From a virus, in IMG/VR virus record IMGVR_UViG_3300047470_000395, positions 61,781 through 125,780 of that record: 64,000 nt of DNA; one strand, 5' to 3'. The position numbers and the translations under genes are program-made. Positions 38,685-54,826 of the stretch are shown piece after piece. How positions within the stretch are numbered: the stretch's first letter is position 1; the number at the start of each line of letters is the position of its first letter. Below the pieces are notes generated by a model. It saw only the letters and a program-made list of their open reading frames with translations. It ran no database searches and was not told the DNA's origin.

Positions 38685-38706
38685 GGGTGTCCTCGCTTCG
38701 TGGTCT

Positions 38707-38726
38707 GGGCCGGTGCTCTCCGGCCC
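38707..38726 (-). promoter_or_regulatory. AGAGCA leader hairpin
   Basis: Perfect 7-bp stem GGGCCGG/CCGGCCC around AGAGCA, in the leader of the gene at 38684. Confidence 0.8.
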
Positions 38727-38778
38727 GGGGCGGTGCGCCCTGCTCCTGCGCCGGACGGGCCGGTTCAGGGGCGGAGCG

Positions 38779-38807
38779 CACCGCCCGCCGTGGGGTGGCG
38801 GGCGGTG
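38779..38807 (-). terminator. Hairpin terminator (CACCGCCCGCC type)
   Basis: CACCGCCCGCC pairs with GGCGGGCGGTG over 7 bases, after the stop at 38819. The identical arms recur at 48298-48328 on the plus strand. Confidence 0.7.
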
Positions 38808-38818
38808 CTGCGGGCGGG

Positions 38819-39145
38819 CTACGCCAGGGCGACGGTGACCAGGACGTCCGCGAAGTACGTGTCGGGGTGCTCGCCGTCGTTGATCTCGAGGCCCTGGAAC
38901 TCCCAGTCCGCGGCGATGTCCGCGGCGAGCTCGGCGCGGCCCCTGCGCAGCGCGTGACCGTGGCTCACGGCCTCCACCGAGAACCAGTCGAGACCGGTGT
39001 CACGCAGCGACACCCACGCGGCGTTGGAGTTGTCGCCGACGCGGACGACCTCCGGCAGGATGCGGCGGATCTCGAACCCGGCCACCGGGCGGTCGGTGTA
39101 GACGACGGTGAAGCGGCGCAGCGTCTTGTGCAGGGTCAGGGACAT
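38819..39145 (-). CDS. Small hypothetical protein
   Basis: 108 residues; ATG follows accacgaagtgaggaacccc and an AGAGCA hairpin. Beta-rich (RFTVVYTDRPVAGFEIRRILPEVVRVGDNSNAAWVSLRDTG) with Trp and an acidic end (EINDGEHPDTYFADVLVTVALA). No motif recognised. A single-gene cassette with its own leader and terminator. Confidence 0.7.
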   Translation of the reverse strand: MSLTLHKTLRRFTVVYTDRPVAGFEIRRILPEVVRVGDNSNAAWVSLRDTGLDWFSVEAVSHGHALRRGRAELAADIAADWEFQGLEINDGEHPDTYFADVLVTVALA

Positions 39146-39167
39146 GGGGTTCCTCACTTCGTGGTGG

Positions 39168-39189
39168 GGGGCCGGTGCTCTCCGGCCCC
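39168..39189 (-). promoter_or_regulatory. AGAGCA leader hairpin
   Basis: Perfect 8-bp stem GGGGCCGG/CCGGCCCC around AGAGCA. Confidence 0.8.
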
Positions 39190-39195
39190 GGGGGT

Positions 39196-39218
39196 GGGGC
39201 GCCCACGGCGGGCGCCCC
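39196..39218 (-). terminator. Hairpin terminator
   Basis: GGGGCGCCC-acggc-GGGCGCCCC, after the stop of the DpdA-like gene (39235). Confidence 0.65.
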
Positions 39219-39234
39219 TGGGGAGCTGCTGCGG

Positions 39235-40128
39235 TCAGGCGGCGAGCAGAAGCTGGGGGTCGTCCGGCAGGCTGTTGAGGAGCGCGTTCCGCCATGCGAT
39301 GGCGTACTTCGGGCAGTTGCCGCAGTGCACGTGCTTGCCGACACAGCCGGGCATCGGGGCCCGGTTCACCGCGTTGTAGGACCAGGCCATGGAGTCGGAG
39401 CTGTAGAGCTGGTGGGCGACGCGGCGGAGACCGGTCTTCTTGAAGCCGAAGCCGTGCAGGCGGATGCCCATGGACCAGACGGTTTCGATGATCCGGGCGG
39501 CCTCGTCGGTCTGCTGCAGGCGGCACACGGAGCCGATGCCGACGACGGGTTCGAGCGTGAGGTCGACGCCCACCTGGTCGTACAGGTCGATGCACCGCAG
39601 GTAGTCGTCGAGCGTGCGGCCCTGGATGACCGGCATCCACGGCAGCTCGGAGTCGAGCGTCATCAGGTTCAGGTACGACGCGACGGTCTTGATCTGGTGG
39701 TCGGCGATCGTGAGGCCGGTCTTCGCGAGGATCTCGTCCTCGCACATCCAGTCCTGAATGGCACACATGTCCATCAGGCCGATCTCGTCGTGGTACCGGC
39801 GCGCCGCCGCGGCGTACGTGTACGGCGAGACCGTCCAACGGCCGTGCTGCGACAGCTCCGTGAACCCGCGGGAGTCGAGCATCCACGGGGTGACGGCGCG
39901 CGGCAGGGTCTTACGGTCGGCCAGGCGCCCGTGGGAGACGCACAGCGGGATGCAGTCGTTGCCGAACTCTTCGCGGGCGAGCCAAGACGGCTGGTGCGTG
40001 CCCAGGTACGTCACGCGGTCGAAGTCGGCGAACCAACGGCGGTCGGCGTAGACGGGCGCGGGGCGCTTTGCCTGGGGCTGCGCATTCGCCGCCGGGGCGG
40101 GAATGTCGAAGAGTGCGGCATTGGCCAT
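39235..40128 (-). CDS. dpdA: DpdA-type tRNA-guanine transglycosylase-like DNA modification enzyme
   Basis: 297 residues from the ATG at 40128 after the shared leader block. LDSRGFTELSQHGRWTVSPYTYAAAARRYHDEIG, then QDWMCE and HGFGFKKTG, with SSDSMAWSYNA and the Cys cluster CVGKHVHCGNC, match DpdA proteins known in phages and bacteria. DpdA swaps guanine in DNA for preQ0 or a relative, a 7-deazaguanine that blocks restriction. The preQ0 pathway is not in the window. It starts MANAALFDIPA, a peptide shared with two neighbours. Key check: the conserved Asp of the LDSRGF motif is present. Confidence 0.75.
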   Translation of the reverse strand: MANAALFDIPAPAANAQPQAKRPAPVYADRRWFADFDRVTYLGTHQPSWLAREEFGNDCIPLCVSHGRLADRKTLPRAVTPWMLDSRGFTELSQHGRWTVSPYTYAAAARRYHDEIGLMDMCAIQDWMCEDEILAKTGLTIADHQIKTVASYLNLMTLDSELPWMPVIQGRTLDDYLRCIDLYDQVGVDLTLEPVVGIGSVCRLQQTDEAARIIETVWSMGIRLHGFGFKKTGLRRVAHQLYSSDSMAWSYNAVNRAPMPGCVGKHVHCGNCPKYAIAWRNALLNSLPDDPQLLLAA

Positions 40129-40150
40129 GGTGTTCCTCGCTTCGTGGTCC

Positions 40151-40172
40151 GTTGGCGGTGCTCTCCGCCAAC
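40151..40172 (-). promoter_or_regulatory. AGAGCA leader hairpin
   Basis: Perfect 8-bp stem GTTGGCGG/CCGCCAAC around AGAGCA, in the leader of the DpdA-like gene. Confidence 0.8.
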
Positions 40173-40177
40173 ACGAG

Positions 40178-40198
40178 GAATAGTACACCCTGGGCAAC
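40178..40198 (-). promoter_or_regulatory. CCCWGGG-TACTATTC promoter/operator motif
   Basis: Minus strand TTGCCCAGGGTGTACTATTC, 6 bases upstream of the hairpin. A perfect copy of the window consensus. Confidence 0.8.
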
Positions 40199-40227
40199 AC
40201 GTGGGGTAGGGGTACGGGGAAACGGAA

Positions 40228-40259
40228 GCGGGGGACCGCCCACCAGGACGACCCCCCGC
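40228..40259 (-). terminator. Hairpin terminator
   Basis: GCGGGGG pairs with CCCCCGC, 14 bases after the stop at 40273. Confidence 0.55.
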
Positions 40260-40272
40260 GGTGCGGGCCGGC

Positions 40273-40845
40273 TCAGCCCTCCGGGGTCAGGAACACCGCG
40301 GCCCGGCCGTCGTCGTAGCGCAGCCGCAGCGTCCGCCCGTCCGTATGCCGGTCCAGCCGCATCCCGTTCTCGGCGAGCGCCTCGGCCACCCTGTGCGCCA
40401 CCTGGTCCCCGGGCACGGCCTGGCCCTCGACGACGTCGCCGACCGTGACCCGGTACGCCGTGCCCGGGTCGACGATCTGGGCCGCGATACCGGCGCGCTG
40501 GTGCTCCGAGTACACCGGCGTGCCCGCGGCTTCCCGTACCCACTCCCGCGGAGGCAGGGCGGGCAGGCCCAGGACGTCGGTCCAGCCGTCCAGCAGCCAC
40601 ACGGTGGTGCCCTCGACGGGTCCGCGCTTGCGGATGGCGGGCGTGCCGTCCATGCGGAGCCGGTCCCCCGTCACATGCACCGTGCCAGACGCCGGGTCGG
40701 ACGCCATGCGGGCCGCGGTGATCCGGAGCTGGTACGGGCGGGCGTTCGGGATCCCCGACAGGGCCTCCGTCACCGTGATGGTCCGGCCCACCAGAGCGCG
40801 CACCGCCTCCGGCTGCTCGTCGAGGTCCTCGGGCTGTTCAGGCAT
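40273..40845 (-). CDS. Hypothetical protein
   Basis: 190 residues from the ATG at 40845 (ggag 9 bases upstream); an ATG at 40860 lacks an RBS. Beta-rich first 100 residues, then helical. Segments PARPYQLRITAARMASDPASGTVHVTGDR and ALPPREWVREAAGTPVYSEHQRAGIAAQ have no known match. Between the DpdA-like and PAPS-reductase-like genes, so possibly linked to modification; unproven. Confidence 0.65.
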   Translation of the reverse strand: MPEQPEDLDEQPEAVRALVGRTITVTEALSGIPNARPYQLRITAARMASDPASGTVHVTGDRLRMDGTPAIRKRGPVEGTTVWLLDGWTDVLGLPALPPREWVREAAGTPVYSEHQRAGIAAQIVDPGTAYRVTVGDVVEGQAVPGDQVAHRVAEALAENGMRLDRHTDGRTLRLRYDDGRAAVFLTPEG

Positions 40846-40884
40846 CGTCGTCGTCTCCATCGGGAAGGGGTCGGGGGCCAGTCT

Positions 40885-40913
40885 GCCCGCGCCGGAGCGG
40901 GCCCGGCGCGGGC
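40885..40913 (-). terminator. Hairpin terminator
   Basis: GCCCGCGCCG pairs with CGGCGCGGGC, immediately after the stop of the PAPS-reductase-like gene at 40924. Confidence 0.65.
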
Positions 40914-40923
40914 ATGGGGTAGA

Positions 40924-42018
40924 TCAGGCGGCCAGGCCGTACAACGTGACCTGACGGACGCGGTACTTGGTCGTCGCGGCCTGGCCGATGTGCACGGCCA
41001 TCGCGGTCCCGGCCGGCGGCCGCGCGGCGGGTCCCTCGGCCTCCTCGAGCGCCTGGGCGCGTCGGATGATCTCCCGCATCGACAACCCCTTCTTGAAGTC
41101 GGCCCCGACGGTGACTTCGGTCCGGGCGTACGCCGCGGCGAGCTCCGGCACCCGACGGGCACCGTTCACCAAGTCGCTGTTGCACCCGAGGACACAGAAA
41201 ACGCAGCTCAGGCGCCGGTTTCCCCAGTCGTATGCCGGGTGGTACGGCAGACGCGACCGGGCTATCTCCTGCCACACCTTCCGGTCGCTCCACGCGTGGA
41301 TCGGGCGCCAGGTGACGACGTGCCGCTTCCCGTTGCTCGCCCCGCGGTTGATCTCCACCTCGGCGAGCTGCGCCCGCGCGGTGCTCTCCGCGGCCCGCTG
41401 GCCGATGCACTCCAGGATTCGCACGGGACGGCCCAGGTCGCCCAGCTCGGCGACCAGCCGCGTGTACAGGGTCCGGATCGGGCCCCGCTTCGCGTCCGGG
41501 GTGCACCAGCGTGCAGCACTCGACGGCCAGGCCGGGGCAACCTTCGCCGTGGCCGGGTCCTCGCCGCGCTCCCGCGCCTCCTCTTCGGCCTTCGCCTTCA
41601 GCTTGCCGTACCGGATCTCGACGCGGTCGAGGAGATCGGCGCCCTTCGCCTGGACCACCTCGAACCGGCGGACCCCGGCGAGCGCGGCCTGGAGCTCGGC
41701 GAGCTCGCGCGTCCCTTCCCACTCGACCCGGCCCAAGTCCGCGTGGACGACGACGACCTTGTGCAGCATCCCCAGGGCCTTCGCGCGCCGCACGACGTAC
41801 GACAGCATCGCCTGACTGTCCTTGCCGCCACTGCTCGAGATGACGACCCAGTCCGCGTCTCGGATCATCTCGTCCGGCACGGTCGTCGACGGCTCGAGGG
41901 GCACGGACGCGTGCACCGTCTTCCGCCGCTTCGGCTTGGGCTTCGCCGGCGCTGCGACCACGGGGGCGGCGTGCGGGCTCTGGATGGCGGGGAGGTCGAA
42001 CAGGGCGGCGGTCTGCAT
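40924..42018 (-). CDS. PAPS reductase-like PP-loop protein
   Basis: 364 residues; RBS cgaggacgcccgcc. SSGGKDSQAM at about 61-70 is the PP-loop that binds adenylate; a Cys cluster RLSCVFCVLGC (about 275-285) resembles the cluster region of PAPS reductase-like and DndC-like enzymes. Such proteins adenylate or handle sulfur in sulfate reduction or DNA phosphorothioation; phage members are of unknown substrate. N-terminus MQTAALFDLPA plus a Pro/Lys linker is shared with neighbours. Likely part of a DNA modification set. Confidence 0.7.
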   Translation of the reverse strand: MQTAALFDLPAIQSPHAAPVVAAPAKPKPKRRKTVHASVPLEPSTTVPDEMIRDADWVVISSSGGKDSQAMLSYVVRRAKALGMLHKVVVVHADLGRVEWEGTRELAELQAALAGVRRFEVVQAKGADLLDRVEIRYGKLKAKAEEEARERGEDPATAKVAPAWPSSAARWCTPDAKRGPIRTLYTRLVAELGDLGRPVRILECIGQRAAESTARAQLAEVEINRGASNGKRHVVTWRPIHAWSDRKVWQEIARSRLPYHPAYDWGNRRLSCVFCVLGCNSDLVNGARRVPELAAAYARTEVTVGADFKKGLSMREIIRRAQALEEAEGPAARPPAGTAMAVHIGQAATTKYRVRQVTLYGLAA

Positions 42019-42072
42019 GGCGGGCGTCCTCGAGGGCGTGGAGCGGGCGGAGCGGGGCGGGGAGCGGGAGCG

Positions 42073-42098
42073 GGGGGCGCAGCACGGGCCGCGCCCCC
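42073..42098 (-). terminator. Hairpin terminator
   Basis: GGGGGCGC pairs with GCGCCCCC after the stop at 42109. Confidence 0.55.
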
Positions 42099-42108
42099 TG
42101 GGGGGCCG

Positions 42109-42555
42109 TCAGCGGTACCAGTGGCCGAACTGGTTGCGGCGGGTCACGTACATCTCGGCGTGCTCCTCGTCGCGCCACTCGCACGGGGGCAGCGCGTAGC
42201 GGACGACCGCGCCGAACCGGCAGGTGGATACGACGGTCGCCGTGTCGCCGTCGTGAAGGGTGATCACGTCGCCGGTCTCCAGCCCCAGGAAGTCCGGGGT
42301 CGGCGCGCTCGCTTCGTTCCTCCACCAGGCGCCCCACGCCTTCGGCGCGTGCGGGGACCTCGAGAGCGGCGCGAACTGGTCGCCGGGCCGGTAGTCGATC
42401 CACTCGATGGTGTCCGCCTTCGGGCTGTACAGGTGCTCACGGTCGTACGCGGCCGGGACGCTCGAGACGGGCAGCTCTCCCAGGGCGAGCGGCCTACGGG
42501 CCTTCGCGGGGGCCGGGGCGGCGGGGACGACGTCGAACAGGGCGAGGGTCTGCAT
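42109..42555 (-). CDS. Hypothetical protein with N-terminal ALFD motif
   Basis: 148 residues from the ATG at 42555 after ctggaggaccccc. N-terminus MQTLALFDVVPAAPAPAKA matches the PAPS-reductase-like protein (MQTAALFDLPA). The rest is beta-rich with LETGDVITLHDGDTATVVSTCRFGAVVRYALPPCEWRDEEHAEM, a possible small barrel. Upstream of that protein on the same strand and likely acts with it. Confidence 0.7.
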   Translation of the reverse strand: MQTLALFDVVPAAPAPAKARRPLALGELPVSSVPAAYDREHLYSPKADTIEWIDYRPGDQFAPLSRSPHAPKAWGAWWRNEASAPTPDFLGLETGDVITLHDGDTATVVSTCRFGAVVRYALPPCEWRDEEHAEMYVTRRNQFGHWYR

Positions 42556-42602
42556 GGGGGTCCTCCAGGACGTGAGGCGGGCGGAGAAGGGGGCTGAGGG
42601 GC

Positions 42603-42630
42603 CGGGGCGCACCGTGCGGGCTGCGCCCCG
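42603..42630 (-). terminator. Hairpin terminator
   Basis: CGGGGCGCA pairs with TGCGCCCCG after the stop at 42646. Confidence 0.6.
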
Positions 42631-42645
42631 CCCCGGGGGGAGCTG

Positions 42646-43527
42646 CTAGCCGTTCCAGGCCGCGCGGATGTCGGCGACGAACTTGGCGGCCGCGGCGGTC
42701 GCGCTCGCCGGGTCGGCGTTCGGGTCGCACCGGTGGATGACGGCCTCGGCCGCGCCGTTGTTGAACCGGATCTGCCAGGTACCGGCCCAGTGCTCCATGG
42801 GCGCGTCGACGAACACCCAGTCCTCATGGGCCTCGTAGATGAAGGCGACGAGCTGGGGCGTCCCAACGCCGGGGAAGTCGCTGCCGGTCACGGGGATGAC
42901 CAGCCACGAGTTACCGGCGTCCTCGTCGGCGTGCGCGGTGATGCCGTGCTCGGCGAGCGCCGCGGTCATCCGCTCGCGGGCCGTGGGCGCCGGGGGCGTG
43001 AGGATGAGCCGCGCCAGACGCTCCCGGCCGGTGCGGTCGCACTCCCGGAACTCCTCCACGGTCCAGCCGGCCACCCGGAACAGGTCGGCGTACTCGTGGA
43101 TGGTCCGCTCCTCCTCGGCGGCGTCCACCGTGGCGGGCTGGTGCTCGCGGCGGAACCCCAGCACCACCTCACCGGTCTCGCGGCGCGGGTCCAGGTCGGC
43201 CCCGGCGCTGATGCACTGGTCCCGGTCGTTGAACGCGGCGAGCGGCTGCCCGTCGTGGGTAAGCAGGCGGACGGCCGCCTTCACCTGGGGCACGTCGGTG
43301 CTCTCGGGCAGGCAGCCGAAGGAGTACGGCGCGGCCTCGCCCGCCAGACGCATGAAGACCAGTCCACCCGCCCCGGGAGTTGCCGCGCGCACCTTCGGGT
43401 CCTCGTCGGCGGCCTTGAGCGCCCGCTCGTACGTGTCGGCCTTCACCTGGCTGATCAGGTTGCCCTCGCGGTCCTTGATGGCCCACCAGCAGACGGACTC
43501 GACGGGGGTGGTGGCGGTGTTCGGCAT
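42646..43527 (-). CDS. Hypothetical protein
   Basis: 293 residues; RBS cgaggagaactccgcc. Begins with a beta domain (SVCWWAIKDREGNLISQVKADTYERALKAADED), then a disordered acidic middle, a helical segment (EFRECDRTGRERLARLIL) and a C-terminal domain with FIYEAHEDWVFVDAPMEHWAGTWQIRFNNG. No family recognised. A single-gene cassette with its own RBS and terminator but no AGAGCA hairpin. Confidence 0.7.
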   Translation of the reverse strand: MPNTATTPVESVCWWAIKDREGNLISQVKADTYERALKAADEDPKVRAATPGAGGLVFMRLAGEAAPYSFGCLPESTDVPQVKAAVRLLTHDGQPLAAFNDRDQCISAGADLDPRRETGEVVLGFRREHQPATVDAAEEERTIHEYADLFRVAGWTVEEFRECDRTGRERLARLILTPPAPTARERMTAALAEHGITAHADEDAGNSWLVIPVTGSDFPGVGTPQLVAFIYEAHEDWVFVDAPMEHWAGTWQIRFNNGAAEAVIHRCDPNADPASATAAAAKFVADIRAAWNG

Positions 43528-43570
43528 GGCGGAGTTCTCCTCGGTGAGGCGTGGCGAGCTGGGGGAGGGT

Positions 43571-43603
43571 GCCGGGGCGCGGCGCGTACGGTCGCGCCCC
43601 GGC
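43571..43603 (-). terminator. Hairpin terminator
   Basis: GCCGGGGCGCG pairs with CGCGCCCCGGC, 11 bp, after the stop at 43621. Confidence 0.65.
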
Positions 43604-43620
43604 GGTAGGGACCGGACCGG

Positions 43621-44037
43621 TCAGACGACGTCGGTGGCGGTGAAGTGGTCGGCCAGGCCGCGACCGGCGCGCTCGGCCTCCAGGCGCACGGCGGCGTCGT
43701 ACACGGCCTCGATCACCGCGCGGGTGTCGTGGTCGACGACGTACCACTTGCCGCCACGGCCGCCCGTCCAGAAGTCGAGCGCGTACCGGGTCGCCAGGGT
43801 GGCGGGCTCCAGGTACTCGACGACGCGGATGGTCTGGCCCCACGCGCCGTCGGCGGCACGGATGCCGGACTCGCGCAGGACCTTGCCGCCCGCGATGTTG
43901 AAGGCGTACGCCTCGTGCTGCTCGCGGGGGACGGTGGTCGTGTAGATCCGGTGGTGCATGACGGCGCGGGGCTCGCCGTACTGCTCGGTCAGCTCCCACC
44001 AGGGCTTCATGGCGGCCTCTACGGGGGCAACGCTCAT
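43621..44037 (-). CDS. Hypothetical protein
   Basis: 138 residues; ATG after accacgaaggaggaacacccct and an AGAGCA hairpin. Beta-rich with Arg/Trp (MKPWWELTEQYGEPRAVMHHRIYTTTVPREQHEAYAFNIAGGKVL, then FWTGGRGGKWYVVDHDTRAVIEAVYDAAVR). No motif recognised. Confidence 0.7.
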   Translation of the reverse strand: MSVAPVEAAMKPWWELTEQYGEPRAVMHHRIYTTTVPREQHEAYAFNIAGGKVLRESGIRAADGAWGQTIRVVEYLEPATLATRYALDFWTGGRGGKWYVVDHDTRAVIEAVYDAAVRLEAERAGRGLADHFTATDVV

Positions 44038-44060
44038 AGGGGTGTTCCTCCTTCGTGGTC

Positions 44061-44080
44061 TGGCGGGTGCTCTCCCGCCA
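44061..44080 (-). promoter_or_regulatory. AGAGCA leader hairpin
   Basis: Perfect 7-bp stem TGGCGGG/CCCGCCA around AGAGCA. Confidence 0.8.
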
Positions 44081-44087
44081 ACACAGA

Positions 44088-44108
44088 GAATAGTACACCC
44101 TGGGCAAT
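44088..44108 (-). promoter_or_regulatory. CCCWGGG-TACTATTC promoter/operator motif
   Basis: Minus strand TTGCCCAGGGTGTACTATTC, upstream of the hairpin; perfect copy. Confidence 0.8.
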
Positions 44109-44146
44109 GATGGGTAGGGGTTCCCCAGGAAAACCCACGGGTGATG

Positions 44147-44191
44147 GCCCCGGGATTCCCTCCGGCTGTGCATTCGGGGGAGTCCCGGGGC
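44147..44191 (-). terminator. Hairpin terminator
   Basis: GCCCCGGGA pairs with TCCCGGGGC across a 27-base loop after the stop at 44213. Confidence 0.5.
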
Positions 44192-44212
44192 TCTACCTGC
44201 CCGGGGGAGCTG

Positions 44213-45184
44213 CTACGCGGCCGGGGCGTACCGCCGGCGCTCGGCGTCCACCGACGGGATGACGACGCGAGTGATCCCGTCGGCGAACCGCTCCGCCATC
44301 GGCCGCGGCTTCGGCCACGGGGCACGGCGGGGCTTCACCGGCATGGGCGGGGGCACCACCAGCGGCGGCCGGGCCACCGACACGGGGAACAAGCCCTCCT
44401 GTCCGTCCTGCTCGGCCCGCACGGCGTCCACCTCGTCGGCCTCCCGCAGCACCGCGGCGTGAGCCTGCTCGAACAGCTCCACCCGCTCCGCCTCCAGGCG
44501 CTCCGCCTCCATCCGGGCGGCCTCCGCACGGGCCAGGCGCTCCGCCTCGGCGACGACCGCGGGCACCATCCGCGCCCGGAGGGCCGTCACCGCGCTGTCG
44601 TCGGCCTGCTCGAGGTCCACACCGCCCACGGCGGCCCACACCTCCTCGGCGACGGCCCCGTGCTGCTCCCACAGCGGCCGGGAGCTGCTCCGCGCCTCCA
44701 CGGGCCGCGTACGGGCCCCCAGACGCTGCGCCAGGGCGTGCAGGACGTCCGCGCGGAACTCCCGGACCCGCACGCGCATCGTCGACGCGTCCTCGTACTC
44801 CAGGAACGCCTCGGCGGCCGCGGAGCGCTTCCACACGCCGAACACACGGACCGCCCGGGTCGCCAGGGCCTCCACCTCGTCCAGGACCCGCTCGAGGGCC
44901 ACCAGGTACCCGGCGACCGCCCGCGCGTCGCCCTGCACCGTCAGCCGCCGGTCGTCCAGGCCGCCGTACCGCTCATCGGTCCCGCACATCTCCTTGTAGT
45001 ACGACCACCGGGGGTTCAGCTTGAAGGGGGTCGCCGCCTCCACCCCGTGGACGTCGGCCAGGGCCCACGCCACGTCGTGGTGCTGCTTCGCCCGACGCTT
45101 CGACGCCGCGGGGAACGCCAGGTCGACGGTGAACCGGCCCGGGGCCGACTCGTACGGGCGGGGGAACTCCACATGCGCGCTCAT
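44213..45184 (-). CDS. Coiled-coil hypothetical protein with internal QEGLF motif
   Basis: 323 residues; ATG follows accacgaaagagagagcgc and an AGAGCA hairpin. N-terminal basic region, then a coiled coil around 200-255 (ERLARAEAARMEAERLEAERVELFEQAHAAVLREADEVDAV) and GQEGLFPVSVARPP near residue 268, a Q-x-x-L-F element. The last 50 residues are Pro-rich and basic. No family known. Confidence 0.7.
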   Translation of the reverse strand: MSAHVEFPRPYESAPGRFTVDLAFPAASKRRAKQHHDVAWALADVHGVEAATPFKLNPRWSYYKEMCGTDERYGGLDDRRLTVQGDARAVAGYLVALERVLDEVEALATRAVRVFGVWKRSAAAEAFLEYEDASTMRVRVREFRADVLHALAQRLGARTRPVEARSSSRPLWEQHGAVAEEVWAAVGGVDLEQADDSAVTALRARMVPAVVAEAERLARAEAARMEAERLEAERVELFEQAHAAVLREADEVDAVRAEQDGQEGLFPVSVARPPLVVPPPMPVKPRRAPWPKPRPMAERFADGITRVVIPSVDAERRRYAPAA

Positions 45185-45203
45185 GCGCTCTCTCTTTCGT
45201 GGT

Positions 45204-45223
45204 GCGGCGGTGCTCTCCGCCGC
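45204..45223 (-). promoter_or_regulatory. AGAGCA leader hairpin
   Basis: Perfect 7-bp stem GCGGCGG/CCGCCGC around AGAGCA. Confidence 0.8.
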
Positions 45224-45269
45224 GGGGGGAACCGGCCCGCGAACACGGACCGGAGACAAGGGGGACGAC

Positions 45270-45623
45270 TCAGCCGCGGCGCAGCGCACGGGCCACACGG
45301 ACCAGCCAGCACGCGCGCCGGCTGCCGCGGTACTCGTACGCCCGGACCATCGCGGCGACCGTCCGCGGGTCCGGCGACTGGTGCCACTCCACGGTGAGGA
45401 CCAGACGTTCCCGCAGCTCCTCATTCGGCCGCTCCAGGGCGAGCGTCGCCCCGGCCGGGGTGATCTGCCAGAGCATCCACACGCGGTCTGTGTCGTACGC
45501 GCGCTGCCGGGTGTCCGTCGACCGCGCCGGGCGCAGACCCAGCAGACCGGCGACCGCGTCCGTGAACGCCACGAACGACTTCGGGCCGGGCAGATGCGAC
45601 GGAAGCCAAGGGGGCAGAGGCAT
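45270..45623 (-). CDS. Small hypothetical protein
   Basis: 117 residues; RBS gaggaagg 12 bases before the ATG. ALLGLRPARSTDTRQRAYDTDRVWMLWQITPAGATLALERPNEELRERLVLTVEWHQSPDPRTVAAMVRAYEYRGSRRACWLVRVARALRRG shows a mixed fold with many Arg; no motif. It faces the opposite side of a 195-bp gap holding the end of the next leftward gene. Confidence 0.65.
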   Translation of the reverse strand: MPLPPWLPSHLPGPKSFVAFTDAVAGLLGLRPARSTDTRQRAYDTDRVWMLWQITPAGATLALERPNEELRERLVLTVEWHQSPDPRTVAAMVRAYEYRGSRRACWLVRVARALRRG

Positions 45624-45817
45624 GACGGGCTAGAACCTTCCTCGGAGCGCCCCGCAGCGCCCCGACGCACCGGACGACCGGGCAGGGGCTGACAGGGCTT
45701 GGAGAGCGGGTTTCTGGACTTTCTGGACCGTCCACACGCGCGCGGGCGTGTAAGGCGGCTCGAGGGGCTCGAGGGGTGCCGCCCGACCCGTTCGGCCGGG
45801 CGGCACCGGTGGCCGAC
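45624..45817. other. 194-bp gap with terminator and short direct repeats
   Basis: Contains TTCTGGAC repeated twice around 45708-45728 and the hairpin at 45773-45805. No gene seen. Confidence 0.4.
45773..45805 (-). terminator. Hairpin terminator
   Basis: GGTGCCGCCCG pairs with CGGGCGGCACC after the stop at 45818. Confidence 0.65.
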
Positions 45818-47671
45818 TCAGGCGGACGCGTACGTCACGGGGACGTCGACGCGGAACATGGCGGCGAGCACCTTGCGCGCGTTGGCGGCGGCGTCCTCGC
45901 GGCCGTCCCGCTTGCGGAAGTTGACGACGATCGGCGGGTGCGCCGGGCAGTGCCCGAGTGCCGTGTCGACTCCGGCGGTGATCCGGGCGGTGACGTTCCA
46001 TCCGCTGCGGGCGTCGCTGCGGCAGACGACGCGGACGGTGGGCGTGCCGGTCTCGATGGCCTGCAGCTCCTCCGGGGCGGCGTCGGCGGCGTTGTAGGCC
46101 TGGGCGGCGGTGCGGATGGTGTCGGCGGTGGCGGGCATGTCCGTGCCGTGGATCCGGTGGGCGTGCGGGGCGATGGCCAGGATCACCGCGCGGGCCTGCT
46201 CGACGGCGGCGCGCGCCTGGTCGTGGGCGGCGTTGCGGGCGGGGAGGGTGCTGGCGGTGCGCAGCGACTCCCACGCGTCCTCGACGGCGCCGCGCGCCTC
46301 GACGATCGCCAGGTGCTGCTCGCCGGGCGCGTGCTTGCCCAGGGTGAGCAGGTGGCGGCCGAGGTCCTCGAGGTCGCGGGGCGCGGAGACGGACACGGTG
46401 GCCTCGTAGGCGGCCAGCGCGGCGTACAGGGTCCCGGCGGCGGGGGCGGGGTCCTCGGCGGCGACGGTGCCGAACACGGCGTCCAGGGAGGCGCGGGTAA
46501 CCATCAGGTGCATGTCCGGCGGGAAGGTGCTGCCGGTCGTGCTCTCGTCGTGGCTGCGGAACGTCCAGGTGGGACGGACCCAGGGCGCGCCGGGGCCGAC
46601 GAACGCCGTGACGGCGGAGACGGTGCGGGTCTCGCCCATGTGCGCGTGGATCACGTCCATGCCGGGGCGGATCATGTCGGCGCGGACGGGGAGCGCCGAA
46701 CCGTCGGCGATGGCCTGGAAGGTCTCGGCGTAGTACGCGGCCAGCTCCGCGTCGATGTCGCCGGTCAGTTCGGCGTCCGTGGGGCGCTCCGTCGGGGTGG
46801 GGAACGTGTCGCCGGGGGTGGCGGGGCGCAGGTACACGGTCCGGCCGTCGCGGTAGACGATGTGGGCGGTCGACTTGCACGCGGACATCCGCTTGACGGT
46901 GCGCTTCACCAGCGGCTGCATCATCGCGGCGTTGATCTCGTCCAGGGCCTGGCGGGTCGGGATGATCTCGGTGGGGCCGTCGTTGACGATCCGGACGTGC
47001 TGGCGCTCCTCGGCGGGCGCGGCGGCGGGGGCCGGCTGCGGGACGTACCGGCGGTTCTCCACGACGATGGCGCGGTCGGCGGGGTCCTGGTGGAACGGCT
47101 GCCGCTTGAAGCGCAGGTTCGACACGATCTTGCGGACGTGGGCGGCGGGGATGCCGTCGTGCTTGCGCTCCTCGCCGACGTACACCGCGTGCGGCGCGTC
47201 GACGACGTCGTCGGTGGTGGGCAGCGCCTCCAGCTTCGCGGGGGGCTTGCTCCACAGGCGGATGGACACCGGCTCGACACCGCGCAGGCGCATCGGGGAC
47301 AGGCGGTTGGACAGGCGCACGGAGATCGCGTCGGTGAGCTGCTTATCCCAGCCGCGCGGGTCGCGGTCGCCGCCCTCGACGATCTCGTCACGCAGGGCGT
47401 GCACCTCGTCGGTGGTCATGTGGTGGAGCTGCTCGCGGATGGCCCAGTACCGCTCATCCGGCGTGAAGATGACGCGGACGCGCTCCGACTCGGCGTCCCG
47501 GCGGATGATGCGGCGGACGGTCTCCTTGTTCGCCTTGCCCTGCTCCTTGTCGGCGTCGCGGCTCATCACGGCGTCCACCAGGTCGTGGGTGACGACGCGG
47601 CCGTTGTGCAGCGTGGCAGCGATGAAGACCTGAAGCGCCATTCCTTCGGCGCGGTCGGTAGCAGTCAGCAT
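45818..47671 (-). CDS. Large hypothetical protein (617 aa), possible HTH start
   Basis: 617 residues; ATG follows accacgaaccggaggaaccccag and a hairpin with loop CGAGCAT. N-terminal 90 residues are helical with MALQVFIAATLHNGRVVTHDLVDAVMSR and KETVRRIIRRDAESERVRVIF, an HTH-like region; the centre is mixed with repeated VVENRRYVPQPAPAAAP and VRIVNDGPTEIIPTR; the C-terminus is beta-rich with QHLAIVEARGAVEDAW. No family recognised. Largest gene of the accessory block and the first in the leftward half. Confidence 0.7.
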   Translation of the reverse strand: MLTATDRAEGMALQVFIAATLHNGRVVTHDLVDAVMSRDADKEQGKANKETVRRIIRRDAESERVRVIFTPDERYWAIREQLHHMTTDEVHALRDEIVEGGDRDPRGWDKQLTDAISVRLSNRLSPMRLRGVEPVSIRLWSKPPAKLEALPTTDDVVDAPHAVYVGEERKHDGIPAAHVRKIVSNLRFKRQPFHQDPADRAIVVENRRYVPQPAPAAAPAEERQHVRIVNDGPTEIIPTRQALDEINAAMMQPLVKRTVKRMSACKSTAHIVYRDGRTVYLRPATPGDTFPTPTERPTDAELTGDIDAELAAYYAETFQAIADGSALPVRADMIRPGMDVIHAHMGETRTVSAVTAFVGPGAPWVRPTWTFRSHDESTTGSTFPPDMHLMVTRASLDAVFGTVAAEDPAPAAGTLYAALAAYEATVSVSAPRDLEDLGRHLLTLGKHAPGEQHLAIVEARGAVEDAWESLRTASTLPARNAAHDQARAAVEQARAVILAIAPHAHRIHGTDMPATADTIRTAAQAYNAADAAPEELQAIETGTPTVRVVCRSDARSGWNVTARITAGVDTALGHCPAHPPIVVNFRKRDGREDAAANARKVLAAMFRVDVPVTYASA

Positions 47672-47696
47672 CTGGGGTTCCTCCGGTTCGTGGTCT

Positions 47697-47719
47697 GGCC
47701 GGGGATGCTCGCCCCGGCC
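47697..47719 (-). promoter_or_regulatory. Leader hairpin, loop variant CGAGCAT
   Basis: GGCCGGGG/CCCCGGCC stem on the minus strand around CGAGCAT; keeps GAGCA of the family loop. Confidence 0.65.
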
Positions 47720-47759
47720 CCGCCTTAGTGGCGTCCGCTGACCGTACCGCCCTCCCCTC

Positions 47760-47780
47760 GAATACGCAACCCAGGGCAAT
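47760..47780 (-). promoter_or_regulatory. CCCWGGG promoter/operator motif, variant
   Basis: Minus strand TTGCCCTGGGTTGCGTATTC; core kept, TGTACT changed to TTGCGT. Confidence 0.65.
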
Positions 47781-47859
47781 CGGAGAGTGTGAAGAGCTCG
47801 AGAGTTCGTGGCGCTCACCTGGGTATCTCGAGGAATCTCAACGCGGGGGGTTGCGTCAA

Positions 47860-47880
47860 ATTGCCTTGGGTGTACTGTTC
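47860..47880 (+). promoter_or_regulatory. CCCWGGG-TACTATTC promoter/operator motif, variant
   Basis: TTGCCTTGGGTGTACTGTTC, upstream of the rightward hairpin at 47903; with the site at 47760-47780 it forms a divergent pair about 80 bp apart. Confidence 0.75.
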
Positions 47881-47902
47881 TTCTCAGCGGTTCACACCGC
47901 AG

Positions 47903-47920
47903 CCCCGGAGAGCACCGGGG
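47903..47920 (+). promoter_or_regulatory. AGAGCA leader hairpin
   Basis: Perfect 6-bp stem CCCCGG/CCGGGG around AGAGCA. Confidence 0.8.
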
Positions 47921-47946
47921 CGAGACCACGAAACGAGGAACACCCG

Positions 47947-48282
47947 ATGATCACTAAGGCCACCGACACCCCCCGCGCCACCGTCACCCTGGAGAAGGAC
48001 CCCACCGCCATCGTCTGGTTCCTGGCCGTCGTCACCGACATGGCCACCCCCGCCGCCCGGGTCCACGAACTGATCGTCACCTTCGAGGCCTCGTACGACT
48101 CCCAGGTGGAGGCGGCGCACCGCCTGGCCGAGACGATCGACGGCGCCACCGTGGAGATCCTGTTCGCCGGTGACCGGTCCGAGGCGTACGGCGTGGCCCG
48201 CACCGGCCAGGACTTCGACGGGATGCTCGACCTGTGGCTCGCCCAGCAGCCCCCGGCCGTGTGCATCGAACAGATCGTCTGA
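47947..48282 (+). CDS. Small hypothetical protein
   Basis: 111 residues; ATG after gaccacgaaacgaggaacacccg. Alpha/beta with a hydrophobic first strand (TAIVWFLAVVTDMATPAARVHELIVTFEASY) and EILFAGDRSEAYGVARTGQDFDGMLDLWLAQQPPAVCIEQIV. No motif recognised. First gene of the rightward accessory run. Confidence 0.7.
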   Translation: MITKATDTPRATVTLEKDPTAIVWFLAVVTDMATPAARVHELIVTFEASYDSQVEAAHRLAETIDGATVEILFAGDRSEAYGVARTGQDFDGMLDLWLAQQPPAVCIEQIV

Positions 48283-48297
48283 CCTCCCCCGCACCCG

Positions 48298-48328
48298 CAC
48301 CGCCCGCCATCCCCCCTGGCGGGCGGTG
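48298..48328 (+). terminator. Hairpin terminator (CACCGCCCGCC type)
   Basis: CACCGCCCGCC pairs with GGCGGGCGGTG after the stop at 48282; same arms as at 38779-38807. Confidence 0.7.
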
Positions 48329-48391
48329 CGCCCCGCCCCCGGGGCCGGCTGTCTGGCCGGAACGGGCGCAGGGCGCACCGCCCCACACCGT

Positions 48392-48407
48392 CCCGGAGAG
48401 CACCGGG
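48392..48407 (+). promoter_or_regulatory. AGAGCA leader hairpin
   Basis: CCCGG-AGAGCA-CCGGG, followed by gaccacgaaggaacacc. Confidence 0.8.
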
Positions 48408-48429
48408 GCCCGGACCACGAAGGAACACC

Positions 48430-48975
48430 ATGCGCAGCTTCCGCCTCTCGGCCGTCCTCACCCGCCGCCCCCGCCCGGTCGTGATCGCGCTCGCCGGACT
48501 CGCCGCCACCGTCGCCGCCCTGGTCGCCACCTACGGCGGCACCTACAGCGGCGCCAACGCGGGCGCCACCCTCGGCCCGGCCGGTTGCTTCGTCGGCATC
48601 GAGTGGCGCGGTGAGCCGGGCGTGTACGGCTCCTGCACCGGCGCCGACACGGACGCCGCGCCGCAGCCGACCCCCGCCCCGGCCCCGGTCGCCCCGGCCG
48701 CCGACGACGTCGTCACCGCGTACAACGCCGGGTGGAAGGCGGGCGTCGACGCCCTCGGCAACGGGACCACGCCGACGTACCCGGACGTCGTCGGCGACGC
48801 GAACGACCCGGGCACCGTCGCGTGGGCGGACGGCTGGATCGACGGCCAGGCGGACGCCCTCGGCGACGACAACCGCGACGGCCGGATCGAAGAGGACGAG
48901 TCCGGGTGGGACTGCCACCGCATGGGCAACCGCGTGTGCGGCGCGCAGCGCGACGCAAGCCACACCAGCCGCTGA
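48430..48975 (+). CDS. Secreted or membrane-anchored protein
   Basis: 181 residues. N-terminus with Arg then a hydrophobic helix (PVVIALAGLAATVAALVATYGG, about 17-38) looks like a signal anchor. The rest is extracellular-type: GCFVGIEWRGEPGVYGSCTG with two Cys, a Pro/Ala spacer, then DDVVTAYNAGWKAGVDALGNG and a Cys pair near the end. The shared leader precedes it. Possible surface lysogenic-conversion protein. Confidence 0.65.
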   Translation: MRSFRLSAVLTRRPRPVVIALAGLAATVAALVATYGGTYSGANAGATLGPAGCFVGIEWRGEPGVYGSCTGADTDAAPQPTPAPAPVAPAADDVVTAYNAGWKAGVDALGNGTTPTYPDVVGDANDPGTVAWADGWIDGQADALGDDNRDGRIEEDESGWDCHRMGNRVCGAQRDASHTSR

Positions 48976-50295: not shown

Positions 50296-50302
50296 AGGGG
50301 TT

Positions 50303-50318
50303 GGCGGAGAGCACCGCC
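50303..50318 (+). promoter_or_regulatory. AGAGCA leader hairpin
   Basis: GGCGG-AGAGCA-CCGCC, followed by gaccacgaactgagggagcacccc before the start. Confidence 0.8.
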
Positions 50319-50346
50319 GACAGACCACGAACTGAGGGAGCACCCC

Positions 50347-50724
50347 ATGGCATCTGCCCGCACCGTCCTCCGCAACCGCGTCCGCGACAACCGCGCCGCC
50401 TCCCGCGCCCGCCGCGCCACGGCCCGCGCCGCCCGCGCCGTCCGCGTCTCCGCCCGCTCCATCACCACGCACGTCATCGCCACCGGCGCCGACACCGCCA
50501 CCGTGAAGGGCGTCGTCAAGGCGCTGCAGGGCGTCGCCAAGACCGCCCGCGCCAACGGCCTCAAGGGCAAGCGGGTCCGCATCCGCCGCACCGCCCAGGG
50601 CTTCAAGCGTCACGCCGTCACCGCCTACCGGTACACCCGCGCCCAGGTCGCGCAGATCGCCGCCGCCTACAAGCCGCGCAAGGCCGAGTACAAGGCCATC
50701 CGCGCCGCGCTGATCGCCGCCTGA
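50347..50724 (+). CDS. Very basic protein, nucleic-acid-binding-like
   Basis: 125 residues, dense in Arg/Lys (LRNRVRDNRAASRARRATARAARAVRVSARS, then KGKRVRIRRTAQGFKRHAVTAYRY, PRKAEYKAIRAAL). Looks like a histone-like or DNA-coating protein, or a host-nucleoid-targeting early protein. The strong motif plus leader suggests high expression. No family recognised. Confidence 0.7.
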   Translation: MASARTVLRNRVRDNRAASRARRATARAARAVRVSARSITTHVIATGADTATVKGVVKALQGVAKTARANGLKGKRVRIRRTAQGFKRHAVTAYRYTRAQVAQIAAAYKPRKAEYKAIRAALIAA

Positions 50725-50739
50725 CCCCACCCCTGAACC

Positions 50740-50773: not shown

Positions 50774-50804
50774 CCCCCGCTCGACACACCGGAGACGAGA
50801 CACC

Positions 50805-51314: not shown

Positions 51315-51324
51315 CCGCCCGTCC

Positions 51325-51360: not shown

Positions 51361-51366
51361 GTACTA

Positions 51367-51386
51367 CCCGACGAGAGCACGTCGGG
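51367..51386 (+). promoter_or_regulatory. AGAGCA leader hairpin
   Basis: Perfect 7-bp stem CCCGACG/CGTCGGG around AGAGCA. Confidence 0.8.
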
Positions 51387-51414
51387 CCCGACCACACACC
51401 GGAGGAACACCCTC

Positions 51415-51642: not shown

Positions 51643-51646
51643 AGCC

Positions 51647-51691
51647 GTCGCGCCCCGGGGCCCGGACGTACGAGCCGCCCCGGGGCGCGAC
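51647..51691 (+). terminator. Hairpin terminator
   Basis: A 15-bp perfect stem, GTCGCGCCCCGGGGC with GCCCCGGGGCGCGAC, after the stop at 51642. Confidence 0.7.
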
Positions 51692-51720
51692 GCAAGCCCC
51701 ACCCGAACGACCCAATGCCC

Positions 51721-51742
51721 CGGCCGGAGAGCACCGCGCCGG
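51721..51742 (+). promoter_or_regulatory. AGAGCA leader hairpin (short)
   Basis: CGG-AGAGCA-CCG core with flanking CCGG repeats; followed by ccacgaagagaaggaacacccgac before the GTG at 51776. Confidence 0.65.
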
Positions 51743-51775
51743 AACCGCCACCACGAAGAGAAGGAACACCCGACA

Positions 51776-52606: not shown

Positions 52607-52619
52607 CCCTCCCTCGCCC

Positions 52620-52654
52620 GGCCGCGCCCCCGCCCCTCCGCCGGGGGCGCGGCC
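52620..52654 (+). terminator. Hairpin terminator
   Basis: GGCCGCGCCCCC pairs with GGGGGCGCGGCC after the stop at 52606. Confidence 0.65.
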
Positions 52655-52674
52655 CCCTCGAAAGGCCCCACGAC

Positions 52675-53514: not shown

Positions 53515-53520
53515 CTTGCC

Positions 53521-53548
53521 GCGCCCCGGGGGCCGGATCCCGGGGCGC
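53521..53548 (+). terminator. Hairpin terminator
   Basis: GCGCCCCGGG pairs with CCCGGGGCGC, 6 bases after the stop at 53514. Confidence 0.6.
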
Positions 53549-53570
53549 GCCCCTTCCGGAAGGACACCCT

Positions 53571-54017
53571 GTGACCACCGCCCCGCTGTCCCCGATCGCC
53601 GACCTGTTCGCCGCCGAGGACAAGGCCCGCCAGGTCGCCCGCGACATGCTGCCGCTCCTCGCCGCGACGCTCCGCGCCCAGTTCCCGACCGGCGCCCACC
53701 TCGCCCTGTACCGCGGCCCGGACGGAGAGCTGAGCTACCACTCCGTGCGCGATGCCCGGGGTACGGCCGTCTTCACGTTCGCCGAGTGCTGGTGGAAGGC
53801 TGGCCCGTTCCCGCGCCCGGTCCCGGCCGACGTCGCCGCCCTGTGGGGCGACCACGACCCCACCTCGCCCGCCGTGGTGCTGTCGATGATCCAGCAGGTC
53901 GACCAACACGGCGTCCTGTCGTTCCTCCCGGCCGCGGCCATGTGGCCGGGCGAGGAGGACCTGGACCTGACGCCCGTCGGCCTCCCGCTCGCCGAGCCGG
54001 AGCCGACGCGCCCCTAA
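53571..54017 (+). CDS. Hypothetical protein
   Basis: 148 residues from a GTG after ggaaggacaccct. N-terminus MTTAPLSPIADLFAAEDKA carries an ADLF peptide similar to the LF motifs elsewhere. Then mixed alpha/beta (FPTGAHLALYRGPDGELSYHSVRDARGTAVFTFAECWWKAGPFPRPV). No motif recognised. Confidence 0.65.
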   Translation: MTTAPLSPIADLFAAEDKARQVARDMLPLLAATLRAQFPTGAHLALYRGPDGELSYHSVRDARGTAVFTFAECWWKAGPFPRPVPADVAALWGDHDPTSPAVVLSMIQQVDQHGVLSFLPAAAMWPGEEDLDLTPVGLPLAEPEPTRP

Positions 54018-54023
54018 ACCGCC

Positions 54024-54062
54024 CGCGGGCGGGCCCCTGCAACAGCTCGGGGCCCGCCCGCG
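54024..54062 (+). terminator. Hairpin terminator
   Basis: CGCGGGCGGGCCCC pairs with GGGGCCCGCCCGCG after the stop at 54017. Confidence 0.7.
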
Positions 54063-54118
54063 TTCCTTGCTGCGCCTGGCCTTCCCGGGGCCGCCGCCCG
54101 CATCGAGGAGATCCCCAA

Positions 54119-54676
54119 GTGAGCCGCCACTCCCGCACCAAGCCCAACCGGCACGACCGCCAGGCCCGGCACGCCGGGTTCGACGCGCTGCTGCCGCGCC
54201 TCAAGCGGGGCACGCTCACCCGGGAGGAGGCCGCCCTCCTGGCCGCGTACGTCCTCGAGGAGCGGCGCCTGGGCGAGAAGACCCGCCGGTCCCTGACCGC
54301 CACGACCCGGAGCCTCGCCGCGCACCGGGAGGCCGCCGACGCCGCGATACGGGAGGCCGAGGAGACGGGCGAGCTGCACCGTGTCGCCGTCGCCGAGGCA
54401 CTCGACGCGCCGTCCGACAGTCCGTGGACCGCACTCGTCGGCCGCGCCCGGGACGCGCAGCACTGGGCCGGGCGTGCCCGGAGCGACGTCGGGCAGGCCG
54501 AGCAGCTCCGCGAGCAGTTGCGCCGGTCGGAGGAGGCGCGGGCAACGCTGCGGGGGCGTCTGGCCGAAGCCCTGGGGCGCGGCCGGCTGCGGGTCGAGTG
54601 CCTGACGGGGGACCCGGTCGCCCTGGGCCGGATCGTCGCCGACAGTCTCCGGCGCTCACCGCAGCATCTCGGCTGA
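54119..54676 (+). CDS. Coiled-coil hypothetical protein
   Basis: 185 residues from a GTG after gaggagatccccaa. Basic N-terminus (SRHSRTKPNRHDRQARH) then a long coiled coil (REEAALLAAYVLEERRLGEKTRRSLTATTRSLAAHREAADAAIREAEETGE and QAEQLREQLRRSEEARATLRGRLAEALGRG). Ends GDPVALGRIVADSLRRSPQHLG. No family recognised. Confidence 0.65.
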   Translation: MSRHSRTKPNRHDRQARHAGFDALLPRLKRGTLTREEAALLAAYVLEERRLGEKTRRSLTATTRSLAAHREAADAAIREAEETGELHRVAVAEALDAPSDSPWTALVGRARDAQHWAGRARSDVGQAEQLREQLRRSEEARATLRGRLAEALGRGRLRVECLTGDPVALGRIVADSLRRSPQHLG

Positions 54677-54692
54677 GACACCCCAGGAACCC

Positions 54693-54732
54693 CAGGAACG
54701 CGCAGCCCATGGCAACGGGCTGCGCGTTCCTG
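54693..54732 (+). terminator. Hairpin terminator
   Basis: A perfect 16-bp stem, CAGGAACGCGCAGCCC with GGGCTGCGCGTTCCTG, 17 bases after the stop at 54676. Confidence 0.75.
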
Positions 54733-54750
54733 CTGTTCCCACACACCACC

Positions 54751-54771
54751 ATTGCCCAGGGTGTACTATTC
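54751..54771 (+). promoter_or_regulatory. CCCWGGG-TACTATTC promoter/operator motif
   Basis: TTGCCCAGGGTGTACTATTC, perfect copy. No -35 hexamer is visible 17 bases upstream of TACTAT, so an activator or alternative sigma may be needed. Confidence 0.8.
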
Positions 54772-54779
54772 GGCGTGTT

Positions 54780-54795
54780 GGTGGAGAGCGCCGCC
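54780..54795 (+). promoter_or_regulatory. Leader hairpin, loop variant AGAGCG
   Basis: GGTGG-AGAGCG-CCGCC (one G-U pair), then ggaccacgaacgaagaggaacaccag before the start. Confidence 0.7.
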
Positions 54796-54826
54796 GACGA
54801 GGACCACGAACGAAGAGGAACACCAG

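Follow-up and report, generated by a model that had tools for sequence, protein, structure and literature searches.

The 64,000-nucleotide (nt) stretch analysed here, hereafter the window, comprises bases 61781-125780 of the 125.8-kb virus record IMGVR_UViG_3300047470_000395, to which the closest named phage is Streptomyces phage Gilgamesh (129 kb, host S. lividans). Many of its genes are preceded by a repeated 5' leader in which a hairpin of variable stem and AGAGCA loop is followed by a single-stranded tail, a Shine-Dalgarno (SD) sequence and the start codon. The comparison of related leaders shows that an RNA structure is under selection, in which the stem need only pair and the loop core AGAGC is read as sequence. 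Apparently, the leader is a shared control tag on phage messages. This adds an RNA family with strong covariation that is absent from Rfam (no match above the gathering score in the 64 kb) and undescribed as far as the searched literature shows, no paper describing it having been found in the open-access literature. Its setting is a little-studied group of Streptomyces phage-plasmids.

Selection on the hairpin

The bare hexamer is a weak test of this signal, as AGAGCA occurs just slightly more often in the window than expected (28 occurrences against 18.7). Among hexamer loops closed by stems of at least 5 bp in the phage genome, AGAGCA stands joint first with its own complement at 15 each, the next loop reaching 13, and one of the 15 AGAGCA hairpins is a coding decoy. 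The signal is the hairpin together with its context, not the bare hexamer. When only hairpins 5-40 nt upstream of an SD and a start codon are counted in the window phage, the GAGC loop occurs 18 times and the runner-up 7 times, and GAGC ranks first among such hairpins in most of the phages. Moreover, sites chosen solely by the exact sequence ACCACGAA with an SD and a start codon number 55 in seven records, and an NGAGC[AG] loop lies upstream in all of them. These 55 sites are not independent because the records are related, and the relatedness of the source phages means that site counts throughout overstate the independent evidence. Hairpins arising at random in GC-rich intergenic DNA do not reproduce these counts.

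The stems also covary well beyond chance, which upholds the proposal of an initial annotation of the window that compensatory stems around a fixed loop reflect selected RNA structure. In the 55-site set, permuting the 3' arms between unique sites lowers the pairing from 6.27 to 4.39 of 7 positions, with a maximum of 4.96 in 2000 permutations. Across 40 distinct leaders (A1), 95% of stem cells are paired, compared with 67% after shuffling, and 58 cells carry a double change, compared with 17.3 +/- 3.6 in shuffles, none of 500 shuffles reaching the observed number. The covariation score of these 40 leaders is 0.616 against 0.164 when shuffled, and at most 0.19 when the partner position is slid. 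Within orthologous genes, grouped as single-linkage BLAST clusters, compensatory double changes occur at 48 of 175 stem positions and one-sided changes at 9. For instance, the gp114 stem is GTTGGCGG/CCGCCAAC in the window and GTTGGTGG/CCACCGAC in Gilgamesh, and the gp24 stem is CAGCGG/CCGCTG in the window record and CGGCGG/CCGCCG in Gilgamesh. The strongest evidence is this compensation within orthologs, together with the permutation of lineages within genes described below.

These data bear directly on the possibility that the inverted repeat is a DNA operator for a dimeric regulator. An inverted repeat near a promoter is typically an operator, and the extended start-associated sequence (ESAS) of cluster K mycobacteriophages was interpreted in this way (PMC3203893). 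Here, however, the half-sites vary with compensation around a fixed centre, the opposite of what a dimer site would show. The element also has a strand orientation and keeps a set distance from the start codon. An operator of this kind is very improbable.

Architecture, placement and distribution of the leaders

The 16 copies listed in the initial annotation are all present and equal the full set found in the window by the covariance model and scans. Many lie at 38685-54826, the interval to which the feature had been assigned, but others lie elsewhere in the window and three more in the same record beyond it. The tail, SD and start codon follow the hairpin at 15 of the 16, the exception to the expected arrangement being 18962, which belongs to the gp83 leader described below. 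Similarly, the loop is AGAGCA at most copies but not constant, with CGAGCAT at 47697, AGAGCG at 54780 and AGAGCAA at 14094. The remaining 15 copies and their associated upstream features are as follows, with covariance-model scores in bits.

10731..10781, plus strand: leader of the gp76 homologue, GGGCCCG.AGAGCA.CGGGCCC, tail CACCCGAAGCGGAGGAACAC, start 10779; 34.5 bits
14066..14114, minus strand: leader of gp77 (Sak4-like ATPase), CGGG.AGAGCAA.CCCG, tail GAACCACGAAGCGAGGAACACC, start 14067; 48.8 bits
25039..25094, plus strand: leader of the gp93 homologue, CGTCGCGG.AGAGCA.CCGCGGCG, start 25093; 32.3 bits
38682..38728, minus strand: leader, GGGCCGG.AGAGCA.CCGGCCC and AGACCACGAAGCGAGGA, start 38684; 51.5 bits
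39143..39190, minus strand: leader, GGGGCCGG.AGAGCA.CCGGCCCC and CCACCACGAAGTGAGGA, start 39145; 57.2 bits
40126..40173, minus strand: leader of gp114 (queuine tRNA-ribosyltransferase homologue), TGTTGGCGG.AGAGCA.CCGCCAACG and GACCACGAAGCGAGGA, start 40128; 58.9 bits
40180..40187, minus strand: TGTACTAT box of the gp114 site, ending 6 nt ahead of the stem
44036..44082, minus strand: leader of gp121, TTGGCGGG.AGAGCA.CCCGCCAG and ACCACGAAGGAGGA, start 44037; 55.2 bits
44090..44097, minus strand: TGTACTAT box of the gp121 site, ending 8 nt ahead of the stem
45182..45225, minus strand: leader of gp122, GCGGCGG.AGAGCA.CCGCCGC and ACCACGAAAGAGAGAG, start 45184; 40.4 bits
47669..47720, minus strand: leader of gp124 type, GGCCGGGG.CGAGCAT.CCCCGGCC and AGACCACGAACCGGAGGA, start 47671; 52.9 bits
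47871..47878, plus strand: TGTACTGT box of the gp125 site, lying 23 nt ahead of the AGAGCA stem
47887..47900, plus strand: extra 5' hairpin of the gp125 site, GCGG.TTCACA.CCGC, predicted from sequence between the box and the AGAGCA hairpin
47900..47949, plus strand: leader of gp125, GCCCCGG.AGAGCA.CCGGGGC and GAGACCACGAAACGAGGA, start 47947; 61.5 bits
48388..48434, plus strand: leader of gp126, GTCCCGG.AGAGCA.CCGGGGC and CCGGACCACGAAGGA, start 48430; 43.5 bits
50286..50293, plus strand: TGTACTAT box of the gp129 site, ending 6 nt ahead of the stem
50299..50349, plus strand: leader of gp129, GTTGGCGG.AGAGCA.CCGCCGAC and AGACCACGAACTGAGGGAG, start 50347; 63.1 bits
51365..51416, plus strand: leader, CCCGACG.AGAGCA.CGTCGGG and CCCGACCACACACCGGAGGA, start 51415 (GTG); 47.3 bits
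51719..51773, plus strand: leader of gp133, CCGGCCGG.AGAGCA.CCGCGCCGG with one bulged C, and CACCACGAAGAGAAGGA, start 51776; 32.1 bits
54762..54769, plus strand: TGTACTAT box of the gp137 site, ending 6 nt ahead of the stem
54776..54829, plus strand: leader of the gp137 DNA methylase, TGTTGGTGG.AGAGCG.CCGCCGACG and AGGACCACGAACGAAGAGGA, start 54827; 53.0 bits

For the wider comparison, 205 sites were collected from 24 related records of Streptomyces phages, phage-plasmids and prophages, including a few probable false positives. The stem spans 5-10 bp, and the invariant part is the loop core GAGC within a G-C-closed loop of 6-7 nt; this core is present in all of the approximately 205 sites because the collection was anchored on it. 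The loop variants are AGAGCA (120), AGAGCAA (54), AGAGCAG (13), CGAGCAT (7), AGAGCG (5) and others (7). From the end of the loop to the start codon the median distance is 32 nt (5-95% range 28-39, n=206). A tandem pair of AGAGC hairpins occurs in the leader of two genes of one record (G024 7133-7200 and 11076-11142, L247).

Irrespective of the gene and of the upstream signal, the element heads about 18 non-structural transcription units. Genes with the motif have a median upstream gap of 142 nt versus 57 nt (p=2e-5), and the other members of the gene groups that they head have plain SDs. The motif flags the heads of transcription units and true start codons, which makes it an aid to annotation. 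The start that it defines agrees with the annotated one in most Gilgamesh motif genes. In Gilgamesh gene 137 (NC_073461, 118223), the annotated start falls within the hairpin and is likely mis-called, the leader implying a start at 118268, 45 bp downstream. At an FtsK-like gene (near base 10311 of the window record, outside the window; Gilgamesh 9007), the motif start opens a conserved peptide of 17-20 amino acids, MPSRTAxxxRxSxSLLxR, possibly a leader peptide.

The association with unit heads is also visible in gp107, which has a leader in Gilgamesh after an 85-nt gap and lacks it in a related record (G002), where it lies close behind another gene. Such copies that come and go with rearrangement, and the occurrence of the leader with unrelated genes, would suit a recombination linker, that is, repeats retained as homology for the shuffling of cassettes among phages. 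Because the stems differ between sites, however, they offer little DNA homology, and the compensatory changes and the start-codon spacing would be left unexplained. This explanation has very little probability.

The position at unit heads also agrees with a nut/put-like antitermination element, whose hairpin RNA would let polymerase pass the GC-rich hairpins between the genes of a unit. Many internal gaps of the Gilgamesh right arm hold strong GC inverted repeats and no obvious promoter. Such elements do not, however, require tight spacing to a start codon, and terminators with a U tract are no commoner in the 38-55 kb interval than in shuffles (3 versus 2.9). Antitermination is improbable on this evidence. 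The hairpin was also rejected as an intrinsic terminator, since its tail is GACCACGAA..GAGGA, with no U run, and none of the three terminator-like matches is an AGAGCA hairpin.

At about one third of the sites there is an upstream TGTACTRT box, which mostly ends 4-10 nt (mode 6) ahead of the first paired base, the distance expected between a -10 box and the start of transcription. Because the box usually ends about 6 nt before the stem, such mRNAs probably start with the hairpin, the transcription start being predicted from the box. Upstream sequences differ at the remaining sites, which means that the leader is not bound to one promoter type. At the gp125-type sites of most phages, the box is found 21-23 nt upstream and a different hairpin occupies the presumptive 5' end, but the AGAGCA hairpin retains its start-codon spacing despite the intervening hairpin. 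In comparable sites of lineages E and F, the first hairpin has other loops. Many genes in the window and in Gilgamesh are preceded by a second intergenic repeat, GCGACG(C/T)(A/T)A(A/G)C or GCGACACAAGC, which is a candidate phage promoter.

10053, 19020, 20602, 48950, 51687, 58086 and 59860, plus strand: copies of the second repeat in the window

The element is found in a temperate clade of Streptomyces phages, whose members persist either as circular plasmids or as integrated prophages. The standard leader occurs 17 times in Gilgamesh, and the covariance model found matches in most of 29 further records, with up to 19 per record. In the search of Streptomyces genomes that the initial annotation had called for, 22 of 199 matched at E<=0.001, and the strong matches cluster almost only on phage-like stretches, including an integrated copy (G040). 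Fifteen of the collected leaders come from NZ_CP107934, a closed circular plasmid of 125 kb that carries a complete set of phage genes. No leader was found in the parts checked of two more distant contigs, and a loose pattern scan of bacterial genomes gave mostly chance matches in coding sequence. One 61-bit leader with the tail of lineage A lies on the host side, directly before aspS in a Streptomyces metagenome-assembled genome (MAG) (SH_71_13; NZ_JAEKKT010000166, L179:3653-3702), on a contig with no other clear phage genes around it. It may be a captured phage leader or a MAG artefact. Origin from a conserved host aspS leader was rejected, as the hairpin is present in just one of the Streptomyces aspS leaders inspected.

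Several further features were observed in these genomes. On a 345-kb Streptomyces contig (L303, G139:C7), a large gene resembling DNA methyltransferases has an AGAGCA hairpin with a GACCCGAAGCGAAGGA leader in front of it. The plasmid NZ_CP107934 encodes tgmA/tgmB ATP-grasp genes for a ribosomally synthesized and post-translationally modified peptide at 47456-48714. Gilgamesh gp48 (31978-45852) is a single 13.9-kb gene for a protein of 4624 amino acids, whose plasmid homologue is annotated with a UvrD-helicase domain.

Concerted change of tail and loop and a possible reader

The tail types are nearly exclusive by lineage: CCACGAA in A, CCA[AG]CGAA in B, GCCCGAA in C, GTCCCGAA in D and GACCC[GA]A in E, F and H. 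Tails are more similar between non-orthologous sites of one phage (0.414) than between orthologous sites of different lineages (0.356), and stem similarity runs in the opposite direction (0.656 and 0.835, respectively). As read from these alignments, the stem is inherited with each gene and the tail changes jointly at the sites within each phage lineage. When each lineage is represented once per gene, the same-lineage tail similarity is 0.440, compared with 0.334 +/- 0.008 when lineages are permuted within genes, and none of 2000 permutations equals it. The loop takes part in this change. In about eight leaders of the outgroup G027, whose major capsid protein is 69% identical, the loop is AAGAGCGA and the tail a distinct (C)CAGAAAGG, and several of these leaders have a TGTACA box. 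G027 was rejected as a negative control because of this changed loop. Its upstream regions are enriched in AGAGCGA, as seen in a 7-mer count only. A shared trans-acting reader would produce this pattern of independent sites changing together.

The gp83 leader departs from the standard form, and copy 18962 is the 5' end of this leader of approximately 130 nt, with no adjoining ribosome binding site block.

18837..18994, minus strand: elaborated gp83 leader, in 16 records, based on the fold and pair counts; start 18836
18987-18994, minus strand: TGTACTAT box of the gp83 leader
18959-18979, minus strand: 5' hairpin of the gp83 leader, AGTTGGG.AGAGCAA.CCCAGCT
18231..18836, minus strand: gp83 homologue, 201 amino acids, weak PHROG match to Mu Gam-like end protection

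The gp83 homologue heads a replication and recombination gene set divergent from parB. In order, its leader contains the 5' hairpin, a conserved insert closed by CCTGGGC/GCCCGGG, the tail-like sequence GGACCAGAA and the SD. The stem is nearly invariant across the 16 records. In the consensus fold, the AGAGC hairpin adjoins the CCTGGGC/GCCCGGG helix, which is backed by two compensatory pairs. Because the tail-like sequence follows this helix, the tail and the hairpin base would meet, as in the standard leaders. Alternatively, GCCCGGG can pair with a downstream CCCTGGGC, which places the tail in a hairpin loop, and these alternative pairings suggest a switch. In C, D, E and H the tail is close to the lineage type (for example, GTCCCAAA in D and GACCCGAA in both E and H), and in A it is more variable. 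Judged by its sequence and predicted fold, the gp83 leader is an elaborated member of the family, in which the same two parts are kept but separated by an inserted domain.

Based on these observations, the chances appear roughly even that the leader is a cis-acting mRNA element through which a trans-acting, co-evolving and probably phage-encoded factor sets translation initiation. The factor would bind the loop and tail beside the ribosome binding site and would set initiation for the whole gene set, by either repression or activation. The gp83 leader would then be an elaborated member of the regulon. A more specific version, offered tentatively and with appreciably less confidence, is that one dedicated phage RNA-binding factor reads the AGAGC hairpin and the lineage-specific tail on about 18 mRNAs, with the gp83 leader as a sensor or feedback node. 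If so, the factor, loop and tail would drift together, giving each phage lineage a private translation code. A factor, once found, might also provide a portable translation switch for Streptomyces.

Of the two functions raised in the initial annotation, recruitment of a phage protein fits better because the loop and tail change together in each lineage, and pure protection of the mRNA 5' end is weakened because another hairpin holds the presumptive 5' end at gp125-type sites. The protective function remains part of a rather unlikely explanation, in which the leader is read by the host alone: a 5'-terminal hairpin would shield the mRNA from RNase J/E 5'-end-dependent decay and keep the SD open, with no phage factor. 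The position of the TGTACTRT box, which would place the hairpin at +1 at most box sites, the somewhat more open SD and the copy before the host aspS are all consistent with it. However, a pure protector needs neither a fixed loop nor a lineage-wide tail and would not account for the change of loop and tail in concert. Moreover, at gp125-type sites it is the AGAGCA hairpin that is found near the start codon.

Several results weigh against a phage-encoded reader. The SD is only modestly more accessible than in other genes (0.54 versus 0.43), and the concerted tail pattern is unclear in 3 of 15 gene groups. For the strong copy before the host aspS, any action of a phage factor would be confined to cells that are infected or lysogenic. 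Among 30 candidate proteins scanned with Pfam and PHROG, family matches were almost absent and no factor was identified. The gp83 protein was set aside as the regulator, its weak Gam-like match not being a known RNA-binding type, and its AlphaFold model (predicted local distance difference test score 76) had no significant fold match. The RMF-like gp51 was likewise rejected, as its 23.1-bit score is below the Pfam cut-off and nothing ties it to the leader. For a trans-acting antisense RNA, the counts of extra tail-complement copies outside the leaders were near chance in lineage A.

Comparison with known systems

The initial annotation had likened the leaders to the start-associated sequences (SAS) of cluster K mycobacteriophages. 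SAS and ESAS are found in 11-19 copies per genome adjoining start codons, and their function is unknown (PMC3203893). The SAS holds the SD core, and the ESAS has a consensus that differs in each subcluster and conserved 17-bp inverted-repeat arms, in which departures do not support RNA pairing (PMC3203893). The likeness holds for position, as the leaders likewise adjoin the start codons of genes that are non-structural and follow long gaps. The difference in form, an RNA stem-loop, was also borne out. Unlike the SAS, a fixed 13-bp GGGATAGGAGCCC that has no match in the window at up to 2 mismatches, and unlike the ESAS, the leaders have arms that vary and covary. The element is not the cluster K SAS or ESAS. 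It makes testable by reporter the question that cluster K had raised, whether actinophages tag their own mRNAs for translation.

Other repeats near actinophage genes include the conserved inverted repeats of phiC31 and the stoperators of L5, short sequences that are DNA sites for repressors. The leaders are similarly scattered in the genome near genes, but they are RNA hairpins with a fixed loop and compensatory stems. The class III mRNAs of T7 provide another example of a repeated phage leader hairpin, in which repeated promoters are each followed by the same 5'-terminal hairpin, its sequence tied to the promoter. In the present leaders the stems vary and the loop is fixed, and we know of no compensatory stem variation around a fixed loop in the T7 leaders.

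In T4, one phage factor, RegA, acts at the ribosome binding sites of many mRNAs (PMC3014915). The network logic proposed here, with one factor and many mRNAs, would be similar, although RegA sites are unstructured and variable in sequence and the leaders are fixed in structure and loop. No RegA-like match appeared among the proteins scanned. The operator of gp43 in T4 and RB69 combines a conserved-loop hairpin, about 40 nt ahead of the start codon, with sequence that overlaps the ribosome binding site, and its loop differs between phage relatives (PMC3014915). The leaders resemble it in having, immediately ahead of the ribosome binding site, a fixed-loop hairpin whose stem need only pair and, directly before the SD, a lineage-specific single-stranded tail, which may likewise be recognized. 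They differ in that the gp43 operator serves the autoregulation of one gene and the present element is common to about 18. By analogy, the T4 gp43 operator is the closest precedent in working principle, and the proposed factor would extend to many mRNAs the action that gp43 exerts at its own hairpin operator.

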